Assembly: GCF_034932065.1 (NCBI RefSeq)
Contig: NZ_JAYGHP010000015.1
Location: 1 to 64,000 of the forward strand
Length of the DNA: 64,000 bases
Origin: Crocosphaera sp. UHCC 0190
GTDB lineage: Bacteria; Cyanobacteriota; Cyanobacteriia; Cyanobacteriales; Microcystaceae
Direction: 5' to 3'
This document shows, piece by piece, positions 7,528 to 13,115 of this stretch. A program made the translations under genes and the position numbers. Each line of letters opens with the position of its first letter. Position 1 is the first letter of the stretch. Under the pieces are notes generated by a model, which had not been told where the DNA came from, searched no databases, and saw nothing but the letters and a program-made list of their open reading frames with translations.

Positions 7528-9204
7528 TTAGTTTTCCCCTATTTCTTCAACGATAAATTCAACCGTTTGACCATAGGGGCTACCAAATTTTAACTGAGTC
7601 CCCGATGGTAATGGCACTTCCTCATAGTGGACTCTTTGCCAATGGTCATCCCTCAAAATCAAGGTTCCAAAGCGGGAAAAATCCCGTAGAAAGTAAGTAT
7701 AGCTCTGTTCAGGATCGGCAGGAACTTCTCGGCAAATAATCTCAGCATGACGTTGACTGACCCATTTTTCTTGGATGACGAGATCATTTTCAGGACGACG
7801 GCCCACCCTCATTAACCCGCCGTAAATTTGCCAGCGAGTTTCTGCTTCTTCGACAAACCGAAGATAAGCAGCCGGGGGTTTAGTCGTGATTAAGGGTAAT
7901 TGGGTAATATCATCCAAGGGGGAAATTAATTCCCCATTGAATTGAGGGTGCATATAGAGAATAGGCAAGGTCCAAGCGGGTTGATTAAATTTATAAAGGG
8001 TCAATAATTGTTGTCTTGCAAATCTCACCGCCTCATCAATTGGTTGACGTTGAGTTAAGGCTTTTGTGAAGGCTTGAATAAAGCTTAAGGCTTCTTGATC
8101 GGCGATGGAATCTCGCATAGCTAAGACAGCCGGAACTCCATGATGAATTAAGACTTCTGCCAGGCTACTGCGTTCAATGGTTTTTGAGCCTTGATGATCA
8201 GGTTGGGCCCCCCAACAGGCGTTAAACACCGCTAGGGTAATTTGATTACGAATCAGCACTTGTGCTAATTCTGTCCCATTCATCGTTGCCTGAGAACTTA
8301 AAAATAGTAATCCACCATTGGGGGCTGGCATTCCATGGCCGGCATAAAAAAGGACATTATAATCTCCACTATCAAGGGCTTCAATTAATTGGCCAGGGGT
8401 TGGTTGCACCAGGGGATGGACTCGCACAGGAACGGTAACAGGCGGCTGCCAACTTCCTTGGGGGGCAAAGGAACTATGTTCAATCATTTGGGCCAACAAG
8501 TCAGCCTCGGTTTCCAGTTTTAAGTCCTCATGAGTTAAACCCTCAACTTCTTGAACTGAACGGCCTTGACTGTCAGCTTGATTTGTAATTTCATTGAGAG
8601 GGATTGGGGAGGGATGAGCTTGATTTCCCAAGACCAGCAAGATGTTTAAGATTTCTTTCGCCTGATAAAAAACTAAGGGGTCTACATTGTTAGTGGTACG
8701 ACTAAAAAGAATTTGAGGATCGAGGGAAATTGCTTGTTTACCCGCGGCTGATTGCATAATTTCCCAAGGCAGGGGAATTAATTCAGGCGCTTGAATGTCC
8801 AACCGTAATCTTAAGGGACGATGACTGCCTAATGCCAGGCCGCGACTTTGGGCAAAACTGGAATGAATGGAAGCATCAAACAACCATTGCCACAAACTCA
8901 GACCTAATTCTTGCATGAGTCGTCCACCATAGCTTTCGGTGGGACTTGCTAGGGTAAAGGTCAAAGGAGGCAGATCACTGGTCAGTTGAGCATGAGTAAC
9001 GGGAAGGTGGGGTTCTCCTTGGGGGGCAAACATTTCTTGCCAAGCTAACCACTTGCGGGTTAAGGTTTCTGACCATAAGGAATCATGATGAACGTATCCA
9101 CTCGGCAAAGGGGCATTGGTTACCCAAAGGGCAAAACTTTCTGAACCCGCCGTTGTCAAAGGGGCGATCGCTACAGTTAGGCAAGGGTTTAAGCCTAGGG
9201 TCAT
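7528..9204 (-). CDS. CHAT-domain caspase-like protease fused to an FHA domain
   Basis: A 558-residue two-domain protein. Residues about 130-420 form a CHAT (caspase-HetF) peptidase: the catalytic histidine is in FYAGHG (His290) and the cysteine in AVFNAC (Cys330), spaced as in the family. Residues about 461-556 form an FHA phosphothreonine-binding module: GGLMRVGR, then SQRHAE at 483-488 and RFGT near 511. The protein has no signal peptide and is probably cytosolic. Inferred role: proteolysis switched or targeted by Ser/Thr phosphorylation. It lies 50 to 100 bases from no obvious partner gene; downstream is the convergent DUF4168 gene. Substrate unknown. Confidence 0.88.
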   Translation of the reverse strand: MTLGLNPCLTVAIAPLTTAGSESFALWVTNAPLPSGYVHHDSLWSETLTRKWLAWQEMFAPQGEPHLPVTHAQLTSDLPPLTFTLASPTESYGGRLMQELGLSLWQWLFDASIHSSFAQSRGLALGSHRPLRLRLDIQAPELIPLPWEIMQSAAGKQAISLDPQILFSRTTNNVDPLVFYQAKEILNILLVLGNQAHPSPIPLNEITNQADSQGRSVQEVEGLTHEDLKLETEADLLAQMIEHSSFAPQGSWQPPVTVPVRVHPLVQPTPGQLIEALDSGDYNVLFYAGHGMPAPNGGLLFLSSQATMNGTELAQVLIRNQITLAVFNACWGAQPDHQGSKTIERSSLAEVLIHHGVPAVLAMRDSIADQEALSFIQAFTKALTQRQPIDEAVRFARQQLLTLYKFNQPAWTLPILYMHPQFNGELISPLDDITQLPLITTKPPAAYLRFVEEAETRWQIYGGLMRVGRRPENDLVIQEKWVSQRHAEIICREVPADPEQSYTYFLRDFSRFGTLILRDDHWQRVHYEEVPLPSGTQLKFGSPYGQTVEFIVEEIGEN

Positions 9205-9730: not shown

Positions 9731-10450
9731 ATGAAATACTTGTTCGCTGTAGGTGTCGCTGTCTCTGTCTTGAGTAGTCCAATGGTGGCTTTTGCTGGTA
9801 CATTTAGTGCAGCCGGATATGTCGGTGTAGAAGATTTTGAAGGTTCTTCTTTGGGACAGGCTAAAAACCTAATGTTTTCTAGCTTATTTGAATTTGCTCG
9901 TATCCCTCAATTAAGTAACGGTTCCCCTAATGAACTGTTTGGAATTATTAATCCCAGTGATTTTGGTACATTGGTCACTAACTTATCAATTAATGAATTT
10001 ACTTCTATTCCGTCATTCTTGAAATTCGGAGAAAATGACCGTTTTTCTCTCTCACTCAATTCAATTACAAGTAAATCCGATAGCCCTGATGACCTGAGAA
10101 TTGATGGCTATGGTTTCCTCGATGATAAGTTAAATCTCATTAAGTCCAATGATGTTACATTCAGGTTCACGGCTCAGGATGTATTTGGTGCGATTTCGGC
10201 ATCCTTAAGCTTTGGAGGTACTACAACTCCAACCCCAACCCCAACTCCAACTCCAACTCCAACCCCAACCCCAACTCCAACCCCAAGCCCAACCCCAAGC
10301 CCAACCCCAACTCCAACTCCTGAATCCAATATTCCTTCGCCATCGGACGAACCCGCAGTTCAAATTCCCGAATCCGATATTCCTGGGTTAGCATGGTTAA
10401 CAATTCCTTTGTTAGCGATCGCTAAGAAAAAACTCAGACAAAATGCTTAA
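9731..10450 (+). CDS. Secreted protein with Thr-Pro repeat linker and C-terminal sorting-like tail
   Basis: A 239-residue exported protein of unknown function. Signal peptide: residues 1-22 (KYLFAVGVAVSVLSSPMVAFA). A globular domain of about 140 residues follows, rich in Ser and Phe and with no motif recognised. Then comes a linker of alternating Thr-Pro and Ser-Pro, an acidic PSDEP..IPESD segment, one hydrophobic helix and a basic end (AKKKLRQNA). This order of helix plus basic tail resembles C-terminal sorting signals of the PEP-CTERM/PTPA-CTERM type, but no PEP motif is present. It is a single-gene unit with a strong terminator at 10598. Confidence 0.7.
   Translation: MKYLFAVGVAVSVLSSPMVAFAGTFSAAGYVGVEDFEGSSLGQAKNLMFSSLFEFARIPQLSNGSPNELFGIINPSDFGTLVTNLSINEFTSIPSFLKFGENDRFSLSLNSITSKSDSPDDLRIDGYGFLDDKLNLIKSNDVTFRFTAQDVFGAISASLSFGGTTTPTPTPTPTPTPTPTPTPTPSPTPSPTPTPTPESNIPSPSDEPAVQIPESDIPGLAWLTIPLLAIAKKKLRQNA
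10222..10320 (+). repeat. Hexanucleotide CCAACY tract coding for Thr-Pro repeats
   Basis: About sixteen tandem six-base units of CCAACC or CCAACT, with two AGC variants, lie inside the secreted protein gene and code for (Thr-Pro)n and Ser-Pro. Gain or loss of units stays in frame, so linker length could vary between strains. Confidence 0.85.
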
Positions 10451-10597
10451 AATCATCTACTTAAATCAAAAGTAGATGACATATTATCTAGTTAATTTAG
10501 CTCCTTTTTTCAACAGGTTTTAACCTGTAGCTGAAATAAGCAATAATTGATAAAAAGCCAAAGGTAATGCTATAAAAAACTCGATGTTTAAATTTAG

Positions 10598-10626
10598 TAA
10601 GGTAGAAATTTCTACCTTATTTTTTT
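10598..10626 (+). terminator. Rho-independent terminator
   Basis: A perfect 20-base palindrome AAGGTAGAAATTTCTACCTT (10599-10618) is followed by seven Ts. It ends the transcript of the secreted Thr-Pro repeat protein. Confidence 0.85.
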
Positions 10627-10685
10627 GTGATTTGATAATATTATTTCAAGTTTTAATACTTGAAACTTTCTTCCATACTATCATT

Positions 10686-10793
10686 ATACCAAATCCGGTT
10701 ATCAAAAGAGATTAACGTAGAGACGTTGCCTGCAACGCCTCTACTGGTTTTTTTTTGTTTTAATAACTCTACTTTTTAAAGCGGATTTGGTAT
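10686..10793. mobile_element. MITE-like element with 12-bp terminal inverted repeats
   Basis: ATACCAAATCCG (10686-10697) is inverted as CGGATTTGGTAT (10782-10793), flanked by TTA/TA-rich DNA. The middle holds a near-palindrome GTAGAGACGTTGC..GCAACGCCTCTAC (10717-10744). The 108-bp unit has no coding capacity. This structure is typical of non-autonomous inverted-repeat elements in cyanobacteria. It lies in the 416-base gap 10451-10866, which otherwise holds only the terminator at 10598. Confidence 0.7.
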
Positions 10794-10866
10794 TATATTC
10801 TAATTTTAGGGACATAATATATCATATCCCTACTGTATTAATTAATCTAGTTGAAGCGTTAAAAAG

Positions 10867-11718
10867 TTACAAATAAGCCACTTTTCTTAGTTTGGCATAA
10901 GCAGCTTGAGCAAAACCATATATTTTATCTTTAGACTTATTTATTGTGGACTTTTTAAGATTATCCCAAGATAATTCTTTGTCAGGTTTTCTCCAATATT
11001 CAATGGCTTTCCAACTAGCATTTATTTGATTTACACTACTTCCTACTTGTTTCATGATTTGGGCTAATTCATCATAAGTTACATCAATCAAATTGAATTT
11101 ACTTAATTCTAGAATTTCGTTTTCAATATTCTTTTGATATTGTTGCAGTTCATGTTGAGCTTTTCTCAGGTGTTGTATTGCCTCTTGTTTAGTTTTATTT
11201 TCAGTCTCGGAGATAATAGTTTCAAGTTGTTTTGTGAGTAGCTTTTTAATGCCCTTTGGTGTATTAATTTCCATGAAATAGTCTAGTTGCTCATGGATCT
11301 GTTTAATGTCTTTCTCCACTGAGTTTAACTTACTATAGTTATCGCTTGCTGTGCAGATTACTTGATTGATTGATGGTTGATTATCTCCTAATTGTTCTAT
11401 GTTTGATAAAGTTTTTCTCAAAACATCAATCTGTCTTTTAATTGCATCTTTTTGTTCATCTTTAATGATAAATGCAGCAATCATTTCTCCTTTTCTGGGA
11501 TCTATCTGACTCGCCTTTACTGCCGCATAATATTCTACATCACCATAGACTAATTCATAGGAATCAAAACCTAGTTTTTTGACAAATAAAGGATTGACAA
11601 TACCTCCAGATTCTAAGATGATATTAGCCAATCTATTTACAATCATCTCATTATCCTTAATTTCAGAATAAGGAATGGTACAATTAATGGTATCAACATC
11701 TACTAAGAAAAAATCCAT
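10867..11718 (-). CDS. ParB-like protein with long coiled coil, partner of the nuclease-ParA gene
   Basis: A 283-residue protein starting five bases after its ParA partner, clearly the same operon. Residues 1-90 resemble the ParB/Srx N-terminal fold: a positioning segment (IVNPLFVKKLG) then YELVYGDVEYYAAVKASQID. The usual Arg-rich GERR CTP-binding box is replaced by GDVEYY. Residues about 85-215 are highly charged and predicted coiled coil. The C-terminus has a helical region around YDELAQIMKQVGSSVNQINA that might bind DNA. No clear helix-turn-helix was seen. It may be a partition adaptor or a divergent effector. AT-rich codon use differs from flanking housekeeping genes. Confidence 0.6.
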   Translation of the reverse strand: MDFFLVDVDTINCTIPYSEIKDNEMIVNRLANIILESGGIVNPLFVKKLGFDSYELVYGDVEYYAAVKASQIDPRKGEMIAAFIIKDEQKDAIKRQIDVLRKTLSNIEQLGDNQPSINQVICTASDNYSKLNSVEKDIKQIHEQLDYFMEINTPKGIKKLLTKQLETIISETENKTKQEAIQHLRKAQHELQQYQKNIENEILELSKFNLIDVTYDELAQIMKQVGSSVNQINASWKAIEYWRKPDKELSWDNLKKSTINKSKDKIYGFAQAAYAKLRKVAYL

Positions 11719-11723
11719 AATAA

Positions 11724-13115
11724 TTAAGCTCCTATTTTTTCCAAAACTTCAATAGCTAATGATTCAAATTCAGCAGCAGATGTGTTAGCAGAAGACACAT
11801 TATTTGCGTAGTAAAAAATAGATTTAGGAGCAGGAATTTCCAATTCTCCTAATAGTATAGTTTCATTAATGCAATGAGATAAAGCAGTTCTTTCAGAAAT
11901 CATATTTTCCATAATCGGAAAATTATATCTTGTCGCAATCAATTCTCGCTGCTTAGGAAAAGTATATTTAAGATATTGATGATGAGTAGAAATTTTAGAA
12001 GGAAGAACCCCCATGATTTTGACAGAAGGTTTGCCTAAAGTTTCTCTATTATCATTAATTTGTGTCTCCAAAAAGTTTTTAACACTTCTTAGTCCTTGAT
12101 TAGAAAATGGTTTTAAATCAGAAGGAATAATAATATAATCAGAAGCGGTTAATGCTGATTCTGCATATAAATCTAAAGAAGGAGGAGTATCAATGATAAC
12201 CAAATCATATTCTTCTGTAACCAATTCTAATTTTTTCACTAATCTAGAACGACTTGATGCATATCTTGCTAATTCGTTTTGTTTGTCAATTAACATTATA
12301 TGAGACGGTATAACATCAATCTCTTTTTGATTAAATCCTTGAGATTTTCTCACAATATCAGAAATTGTATTAACCTTACTTTCTAGTAAATGAAAAACAT
12401 TTTTATCCTTTAGATCATCATCATCATCAAACTGAAATTTAATTAACCCAGTTGCAAAAGTAGTATTAGCTTGAGCATCAATATCAATCAATAAAACTCG
12501 TTTTCCTTGATTACTGAAAGCGGCAGCTAAATTAGTAGCAACTGTGGTTTTTCCAACGCCACCTTTATGATGATAAATAGCAATAACTTTCATTGATGTT
12601 TTTTTTGACTCCGTAATAGGTGATTGAGAAACTTGAGGAAGGTTAACTGAATTTTGACTAAACTCTTGAGTAGTTAGAGATTTAGGAGGAATGAATTTAG
12701 ACTGTAAACTCTCCTTTCCAATTAAAGCATTAATTTTGACAATATTTGATTCAATAGTTTCTCCAGAACAACAAAAAACTAATTTTATTTTGTCTTCTTG
12801 TCTTTGATAAATCCTGAAATCTTTACCATTGGTTAAAACGCCATATAAACTCTTGATTTTAGTTAAATAATGTCCGAGACGACGGACATGATGATCTAAA
12901 TTTTCTTGGGGATGTTTTGCTTCAATGACGACACATAAAGAAAAATTCTTGATTTTTTTATTTGCCACTGTCAAAAAATCTAAACGAATATTCCCAAAAC
13001 AAACCTCTTGATGCCAATTATCAGGAGAATAACCTAATTGCGGCAATAAATATTGAACAATTAGCTTACTCTCAACTTCCCTTTCATTACGACAGGATTT
13101 AGGATAAAATTTCAA
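11724..13115 (-). CDS. ParA ATPase with N-terminal PD-(D/E)XK (HsdR_N-like) nuclease domain
   Basis: A 463-residue fusion. Residues 1-120 look like the type I restriction subunit R N-terminal domain: helix with Glu13/Glu15, RLDFLTV (Asp46), VVIEAKHP (Glu65, Lys67), then HHVRRLGHYL, the order of a PD-(D/E)XK nuclease core. After a Ser/Gln-rich linker (about 135-174) comes a full ParA/MinD-type ATPase: deviant Walker A KGGVGKTT (184-191), LLIDIDAQAN, and Walker B VIIDTPPSLD. An internal Met175 could also start ParA alone. Ordinary ParA proteins are about 200-320 residues and lack this nuclease. Together with the next gene it looks like a horizontally acquired module between housekeeping genes. 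Confidence 0.75.
   Translation of the reverse strand: MKFYPKSCRNEREVESKLIVQYLLPQLGYSPDNWHQEVCFGNIRLDFLTVANKKIKNFSLCVVIEAKHPQENLDHHVRRLGHYLTKIKSLYGVLTNGKDFRIYQRQEDKIKLVFCCSGETIESNIVKINALIGKESLQSKFIPPKSLTTQEFSQNSVNLPQVSQSPITESKKTSMKVIAIYHHKGGVGKTTVATNLAAAFSNQGKRVLLIDIDAQANTTFATGLIKFQFDDDDDLKDKNVFHLLESKVNTISDIVRKSQGFNQKEIDVIPSHIMLIDKQNELARYASSRSRLVKKLELVTEEYDLVIIDTPPSLDLYAESALTASDYIIIPSDLKPFSNQGLRSVKNFLETQINDNRETLGKPSVKIMGVLPSKISTHHQYLKYTFPKQRELIATRYNFPIMENMISERTALSHCINETILLGELEIPAPKSIFYYANNVSSANTSAAEFESLAIEVLEKIGA

Follow-up and report, generated by a model that had tools for sequence, protein, structure and literature searches.

What might a CHAT protease fused to an FHA domain act upon, and what would turn it on or off? 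The question is raised by one gene in a window of 64,000 nucleotides (the whole stretch of DNA that was analysed) from the cyanobacterium Crocosphaera sp. UHCC 0190. A first-pass annotation, made from the sequence alone, had described the fusion and suggested a phosphorylation-gated protease, perhaps one of bacterial immunity or cell death.

The open reading frame is real and full length (558 amino acids), and the layout given in the first-pass annotation holds. An N-terminal CHAT domain is matched by Pfam at residues 99-406 (E 7e-20, 72 bits against a cut-off of 24) and a C-terminal FHA domain at residues 466-541 (E 1e-10, 42 bits against a cut-off of 20.7); the numbering of His290, Cys330 and the SQRHAE sequence that starts at Ser483 is also correct. 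A search of domain architecture, which the annotation had suggested, found CHAT and FHA together in all 47 members of an alignment that included the window protein, and the gene is therefore not a chance fusion. Features of the gene, termed here CHAT-FHA, are listed in Table 1.

Table 1. Features of the CHAT-FHA gene; positions are those of the window
Feature	Position	Strand	Basis
CHAT-FHA protein gene, 558 aa	7528..9204	-	ATG at 9204, stop ending at 7528; 96 distinct sequences aligned
CHAT domain, Pfam, residues 99-406	7987..8910	-	Pfam match
Separase/TPR-CHAT-like region, residues 5-423	7936-9192	-	predicted structure; Z 22.4 to TPR-CHAT 8d9f, Z 22.0 to separase 9hn5
Catalytic His290 codon	8335..8337	-	96/96 sequences
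Catalytic Cys330 codon, in F-N-x-C-W	8215..8217	-	96/96 sequences
Asp365 codon, candidate S1-pocket acid	8110..8112	-	Asp 94, Glu 2 of 96
FHA domain, residues 466-541	7582..7809	-	Pfam E 1e-10; Z ~14 to EmbR, ArnA and other FHA domains
FHA phosphothreonine-pocket Arg469 codon	7798..7800	-	89/96 sequences
FHA S-x-x-H motif, Ser483 to His486	7747..7758	-	Ser 93/96, His 96/96

Conservation of the catalytic dyad was a point on which the annotation could have failed. Both His290 and Cys330 are invariant among 96 distinct sequences (the best 80 of 340 matches and about 20 further relatives, with identical rows removed and the window protein included), as are Asn328 and Trp331. Position 365 is acidic in every sequence, and its equivalent in ten aligned HetF sequences is Glu. 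Asp365 is a candidate for the acid of the S1 pocket. The role of such an acid is known from the biology of separase and paracaspase, and clan CD proteases that possess it, separase for example, cleave after arginine.

The Arg/Ser pocket of the FHA domain, the other point on which the annotation depended, is mostly conserved, with Arg469 kept in 89 and Ser483 in 93 of the 96 sequences. Gly468 and His486 never vary. Ser replaces Arg469 in six sequences and Lys does so in one, mostly in Leptolyngbyaceae/Oculatellaceae records, and Gly replaces Ser483 in three, two of which come from the window genome's own family; because of these exchanges, phosphobinding may have been lost in some members. The window protein itself displays the phosphothreonine-pocket Arg, Ser and His. 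The pocket Asn that precedes Gly-Thr, a common feature of FHA domains and not a universal one, is represented by Phe in the window protein, and across the alignment this position is Tyr in 46 sequences, Phe in 34 and Asn in 11. As the aligned nibrin FHA domain has Tyr at the same position, phosphobinding might still be possible.

A predicted structure gives a similar picture of the two halves. The AlphaFold model, built from 47 sequences (mean pLDDT 84.9, pTM 0.73), matches over residues 5-423 both TPR-CHAT/Craspase (8d9f; 303 residues at Z 22.4, rmsd 3.5) and human separase (9hn5; 306 residues at Z 22.0, rmsd 3.8). Since this match begins at residue 5, the first 100 residues, which lie outside the Pfam match, are part of the separase-like unit. 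The modelled C-terminus matches FHA domains, among them those of EmbR (2fez; 101 residues at Z 14.8, rmsd 2.7) and ArnA (5a8i; 106 residues at Z 14.3, rmsd 2.3). A profile search of PDB sequences returned matches to FHA and, up to E 1, none to CHAT. Viral UL130 chains found in that search at E 0.06-0.1 were taken as chance.

At the window locus no partner gene is adjacent to CHAT-FHA, and the flanks encode an ABC ATPase, a DUF4168 protein and a proline/threonine-repeat protein. The frame at 9731-10450 (+) encodes a protein with a long Thr-Pro/Ser-Pro repeat followed by a C-terminal hydrophobic stretch. The N-terminus of a ParA-type ATPase at 11724-13115 (-) resembles HSDR_N models of type I restriction just under the cut-off (E 3e-5), and the gene is adjoined by a frame with a weak ParB_N match at 10867-11718 (-), an unusual combination.

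In many lineages the gene is part of a cluster with the order ndhM - PP2C phosphatase - CHAT-FHA - X. Here X denotes a same-strand open reading frame, mostly of 190-250 codons, that lies within 600 nt of CHAT-FHA in 60 of 80 loci; a PP2C frame lies within the same distance in 32 of the 80, some flanks being cut. Counting only loci with enough flank, the figures are 60 of 74 for X and 31 of 65 for PP2C. A longer order, ndhM - PP2C - CHAT-FHA - X - FHA-PrsW with the last gene on the opposite strand, is found whole or in part across 38 further regions. Of these, 18 have X and PP2C as adjacent genes, 6 have only X, 3 only PP2C and 11 neither, and ndhM is present in 13. Partner X does not appear in the first-pass annotation; in the window's genome it is encoded on another contig (G000:C5:44107-44652), and a PP2C-family gene (G000:C10:126211-128253) is likewise unlinked to CHAT-FHA.

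The cluster phosphatase has a Pfam PP2C match in all 25 members and invariant Asp residues in the CDG, GDS, SDG and GHDN blocks, which we take to be the PP2C metal-binding motifs. Many genomes carry two phosphatases of this family. Other neighbours were identified by viewing 14 of the recurrent clusters or running them through Pfam, several recurrent clusters stemming from one oversampled Microcoleus-like group. Those assigned include NdhM, FHA-PrsW, peptide deformylase, WD40 proteins, glycosyltransferase, oxidoreductase, glutathione synthetase and GTPase, with peptide deformylase and ndhM recurring farther out from CHAT-FHA. The PrsW intramembrane protease that adjoins the cluster on the opposite strand (10483-11838 (-) in locus L041, and in other CHAT-FHA loci) is fused to an FHA domain and represents a second FHA-protease fusion near CHAT-FHA.

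The association of CHAT-FHA with X extends beyond adjacency. Of 244 genomes drawn from the whole phylum, 59 have CHAT-FHA and 61 have X; the two occur together in 58, CHAT-FHA alone in one, X alone in three, and neither in 182. Four of 63 matching genomes (G241, G086, G097, G174) matched through HetF only and were excluded from the CHAT-FHA count. Among 388 genomes of the order, a sample that overlaps with the first, CHAT-FHA is present in 274, with X in 267 and without an X match in seven; X alone is found in 21 and neither in 93. Linkage does not account for this co-retention, as the 11 genomes with neither X nor PP2C beside CHAT-FHA all carry X elsewhere. In the phylum sample HetF tracks CHAT-FHA less closely (both in 50, CHAT-FHA only in 9, HetF only in 5), and the PP2C family is more widely distributed (both in 58, CHAT-FHA only in 1, PP2C only in 29). 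Three of the seven genomes of the order with CHAT-FHA and no X match were inspected: two carry the gene on contigs under 6 kb, and the third, G456, is 99% complete and has no X in its 10-kb region. Judged by these comparisons of sequence, a partnership of CHAT-FHA and X is strongly supported.

X is predicted to be a small helical protein (model mean pLDDT 80.4, pTM 0.58). Among 34 members, Pfam assigned no family except for DUF3090 at 0.0019 in one, and NCBIfam gave no family for the one member that was run. With the model of X, the best Foldseek match was at E 0.41 and the best VIA-align match was to the Nab2 N-terminal domain at Z 6.3, a score that carries little weight for helical proteins; these weak matches do not imply a new fold. 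X contains the motif A-R-P-x-A-x-x-M-R, which ends in Met159-Arg160. In the model, the motif is at the end of a helix (residues 145-158), just before a low-confidence stretch (residues 161-170, mean pLDDT 69).

Of major interest is the fate of this motif where the protease is missing. Of the 105 X sequences from genomes that possess CHAT-FHA (106 rows less that of L101, which ends before the motif), 104 have the Met-Arg pair, vs one of 14 from genomes without CHAT-FHA. A genome was counted as devoid of CHAT-FHA if it gave no match at E 1e-45 or better; the weakest counted match was near 1e-54, so that a very divergent copy could escape. Three of the 21 X-only genomes were set aside, one with X near a contig end (G428), one with a CHAT-FHA fragment at a contig end (G541) and one that is 77% complete (G304). 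X is truncated in four of the remaining 18, and the 14 sequences compared are from the genomes that keep its C-terminal half; G001 (78%) and G504 (87%) are incomplete among the genomes without CHAT-FHA. The 14 are not independent and represent about seven loss lineages by family and genus labels; Fisher p-values take no account of such relatedness. Met159 and/or Arg160 is changed in six of these, and G389, which has the whole motif, is the intact exception.

Taken singly, Met159 is kept in two of the 14 sequences and Arg160 in five (G050, G352, G389, G164 and G001). Relaxation reaches beyond the pair, with Trp143 kept in 5 of 14 and Arg153, Leu98, Val150 and Ala198 each in 8 of 14. Pro34, Pro107, Cys135, Leu148, Trp179, Ser183 and Ala195 are kept in all 14. 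In four genomes (G050, G339, G313, G326) a remnant of CHAT-FHA with stop codons lies beside X, and in these as well as in G301 and G352 X is still flanked by PP2C, FHA-PrsW and ndhM. In G339, one of the genomes with a remnant, PP2C is split into two overlapping open reading frames (locus L263, 2352-4639).

The genus g22 offers a close comparison, as three of its genomes are without CHAT-FHA and two, G042 and G115, possess it. Between the two groups, identity is 96-99% for three flanking genes, 89-90% for a fourth, 68-72% for a fast-evolving fifth and 62-66% for X. The dN/dS ratio of X is 0.28-0.30 among members without CHAT-FHA vs 0.16-0.30 among members with it; X is thus still under purifying selection in this genus after loss of the protease, and a general decay of X is disfavoured. 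That X without CHAT-FHA represents a paralogue is also disfavoured for the g22 and f17 genomes, where the flanking genes are the same. As the motif is kept with the protease and mostly lost without it, and X remains under selection in g22, the constraint on the motif appears, from this pattern of substitutions, to depend on the protease and not on the remaining function of X.

It is proposed that CHAT-FHA is a phosphorylation-gated, arginine-specific protease with X as its substrate and the PP2C phosphatase as the means of reset, a reading to which we assign slightly better than even chances. CHAT-FHA would be an active cysteine protease of the HetF/separase type joined to a phosphothreonine-reading FHA domain. 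Through this domain the protease would be recruited to, or activated by, a threonine that a Ser/Thr kinase has phosphorylated, and the phosphothreonine might be situated in X, in a recruiter or in the kinase. The cut in X would then fall directly behind the final Arg of the motif, where an ordered helix ends and a less ordered stretch is about to begin. Arg160 is proposed as the P1 residue because clan CD proteases with an S1-pocket acid cut after Arg and position 365 is conserved as that candidate acid. In the many lineages where it is adjacent, the PP2C phosphatase would remove the phosphate and reset the switch; the FHA domain together with this neighbour suggests control by phosphothreonine. 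The phosphorylation-gated protease of the first-pass annotation thus stands as the best hypothesis by virtue of the conserved dyad, the mostly conserved pocket and the recurrent PP2C neighbour, and the gating, like proteolysis as such, the position of the cut, the phospho-trigger and the role of the phosphatase, is inferred.

The motif of X could also be a docking site, and X might not be a substrate. It might instead be a dedicated regulator, either a securin-like pseudosubstrate inhibitor or an activating subunit, that places its motif at the active site of a protease whose real target is another protein. Co-retention and dependence of the motif on the protease are equally expected of a regulator, adjacent genes are common among regulator-enzyme pairs, and the truncation of X in four of the 18 genomes without CHAT-FHA is also consistent with such a role. 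However, in the other 14 X persists as an open reading frame where the protease is gone, is under purifying selection in the one genus analysed, and keeps most of its conserved positions with the motif region relaxed, whereas a pure inhibitor ought to decay as a whole. As X often survives with its motif relaxed, a substrate is favoured over a dedicated inhibitor, and the regulator is regarded as unlikely, if still a serious contender. More doubtful is a phosphothreonine-dependent scaffold, in which the protease fold binds X and catalysis is beside the point. FHA domains frequently serve as adaptors, and the activity of CHAT-FHA is a prediction, but a scaffold has no need of the invariant His290 and Cys330 or of the acid at position 365 that all 96 sequences retain.

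A role as an effector of immunity or programmed cell death, the setting that the first-pass annotation had suggested, is very improbable. CHAT domains do occur in the defence proteins Craspase and SAVED-CHAT, which are among the structural matches, and PADLOC gives a match to SAVED_CHAT, albeit a weak one (E 7e-5). Kinases, STAND ATPases and gasdermins had been named as neighbours to look for. Among the clusters examined no gasdermin was found and no kinase recurs close by; a kinase-like protein and STAND-like proteins were recognized by eye in the WD40 cluster, which is represented, on either strand, in 17 of 80 loci and never within 600 nt. Against an immunity role, the gene is widespread, the genes that recur close to it are PP2C, X and FHA-PrsW, ordinary genes such as ndhM, PP2C and deformylase recur around it, and its CHAT domain groups with that of HetF.

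Substrate cleavage by CHAT-FHA, the preferred reading, might bear on genes of Anabaena PCC 7120, in which ndhM is presumably all1732. On this basis and that of gene order, the cluster phosphatase is probably PrpJ, and all1730 and all1729 would correspond to CHAT-FHA and X provided that the order is conserved there. Among the papers listed in searches of the open-licence literature there was nothing that joins ndhM with all1732 or all1731, and nothing on a CHAT-FHA fusion protein or all1730. According to a passage in PMC6161253, PrpJ is the PP2C all1731 and its mutant is without the major heterocyst glycolipid; a reference title in the same paper terms it a plasma-membrane PP2C. The cluster phosphatase, for its part, displays by eye a hydrophobic stretch near the C-terminus in addition to its PP2C domain. 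The gene all1729 is in a 2010 list of core genes of filamentous species, with hetR, hetZ and patU3, and was then dropped because non-heterocystous species cluster with unicellular ones in its tree (PMC2821919, section 10). Its removal from the filament list fits the presence of X in the window's family, whose members are taken to be mostly unicellular on the basis of genome sizes and of relatives with names.

What is new is partner X with its protease-dependent Met-Arg motif: comparative genomics names a specific partner and a dipeptide ahead of experiment. To our knowledge, few bacterial CHAT proteases have established targets, and we know of no other bacterial CHAT protease that is phosphorylation-gated. 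If the proposal is true, CHAT-FHA and X would form a second cyanobacterial pair of CHAT protease and substrate beside HetF and PatU3, one found also in genomes without HetF, and Ser/Thr phosphorylation would be joined to site-specific proteolysis in bacteria. There is also a lead here for PrpJ and for the hypothetical gene all1729.

Among known proteases, sequence comparison places HetF as the nearest family of the CHAT domain. The HetF model NF045509 of NCBIfam matches CHAT-FHA at E 3e-46, vs 7e-20 for the generic CHAT model, and the two proteins share the Tyr-x-Gly-His and Phe-Asn-x-Cys blocks. Membership in the HetF family was rejected, as the score is 158 bits against a curated cut-off of 1200 and only positions 72-389 of 836 are covered. 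In a tree of 44 CHAT domains, moreover, CHAT-FHA (12 rows) and HetF (7 rows) form separate clades with supports of 98/98 and 100/99; a 99/97 branch groups them together with two long-branch CHAT domains, and the other 23 fall outside. Another CHAT protein of the window's genome (L003; G000 contig 14, 63748-64464), with an open frame of 1093 aa, sits on a long branch in weak association with CHAT-FHA. For HetF, the same genome gave no match at E 1e-60. HetF is a protease of cell division and development, described as a divisome component with CHAT, transmembrane and TPR parts (PMC8406250), where CHAT-FHA has an FHA domain instead. Cleavage of PatU3 is reported for HetF in a passage of a review (PMC12288457).

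The defence proteases TPR-CHAT/Csx29 (Craspase) and SAVED-CHAT have the CHAT fold in common with CHAT-FHA (Z 18-22), the added domain of CHAT-FHA being FHA and not TPR or SAVED; no CRISPR or CBASS gene was seen among the recurrent neighbours examined. With separase the structural match covers about 300 residues with Z up to 22, at 12-16% sequence identity in the structural rows, and the FHA domain of CHAT-FHA stands in place of the long helical part that separase has. The parallel is also one of working mode, as separase performs phospho-regulated cleavage after Arg. A bacterial separase-like switch, in which a phosphothreonine read by the FHA domain licenses the CHAT domain to cut X at one Arg and the PP2C phosphatase acts as the off signal, is a tentative model whose chances we place a little below even.
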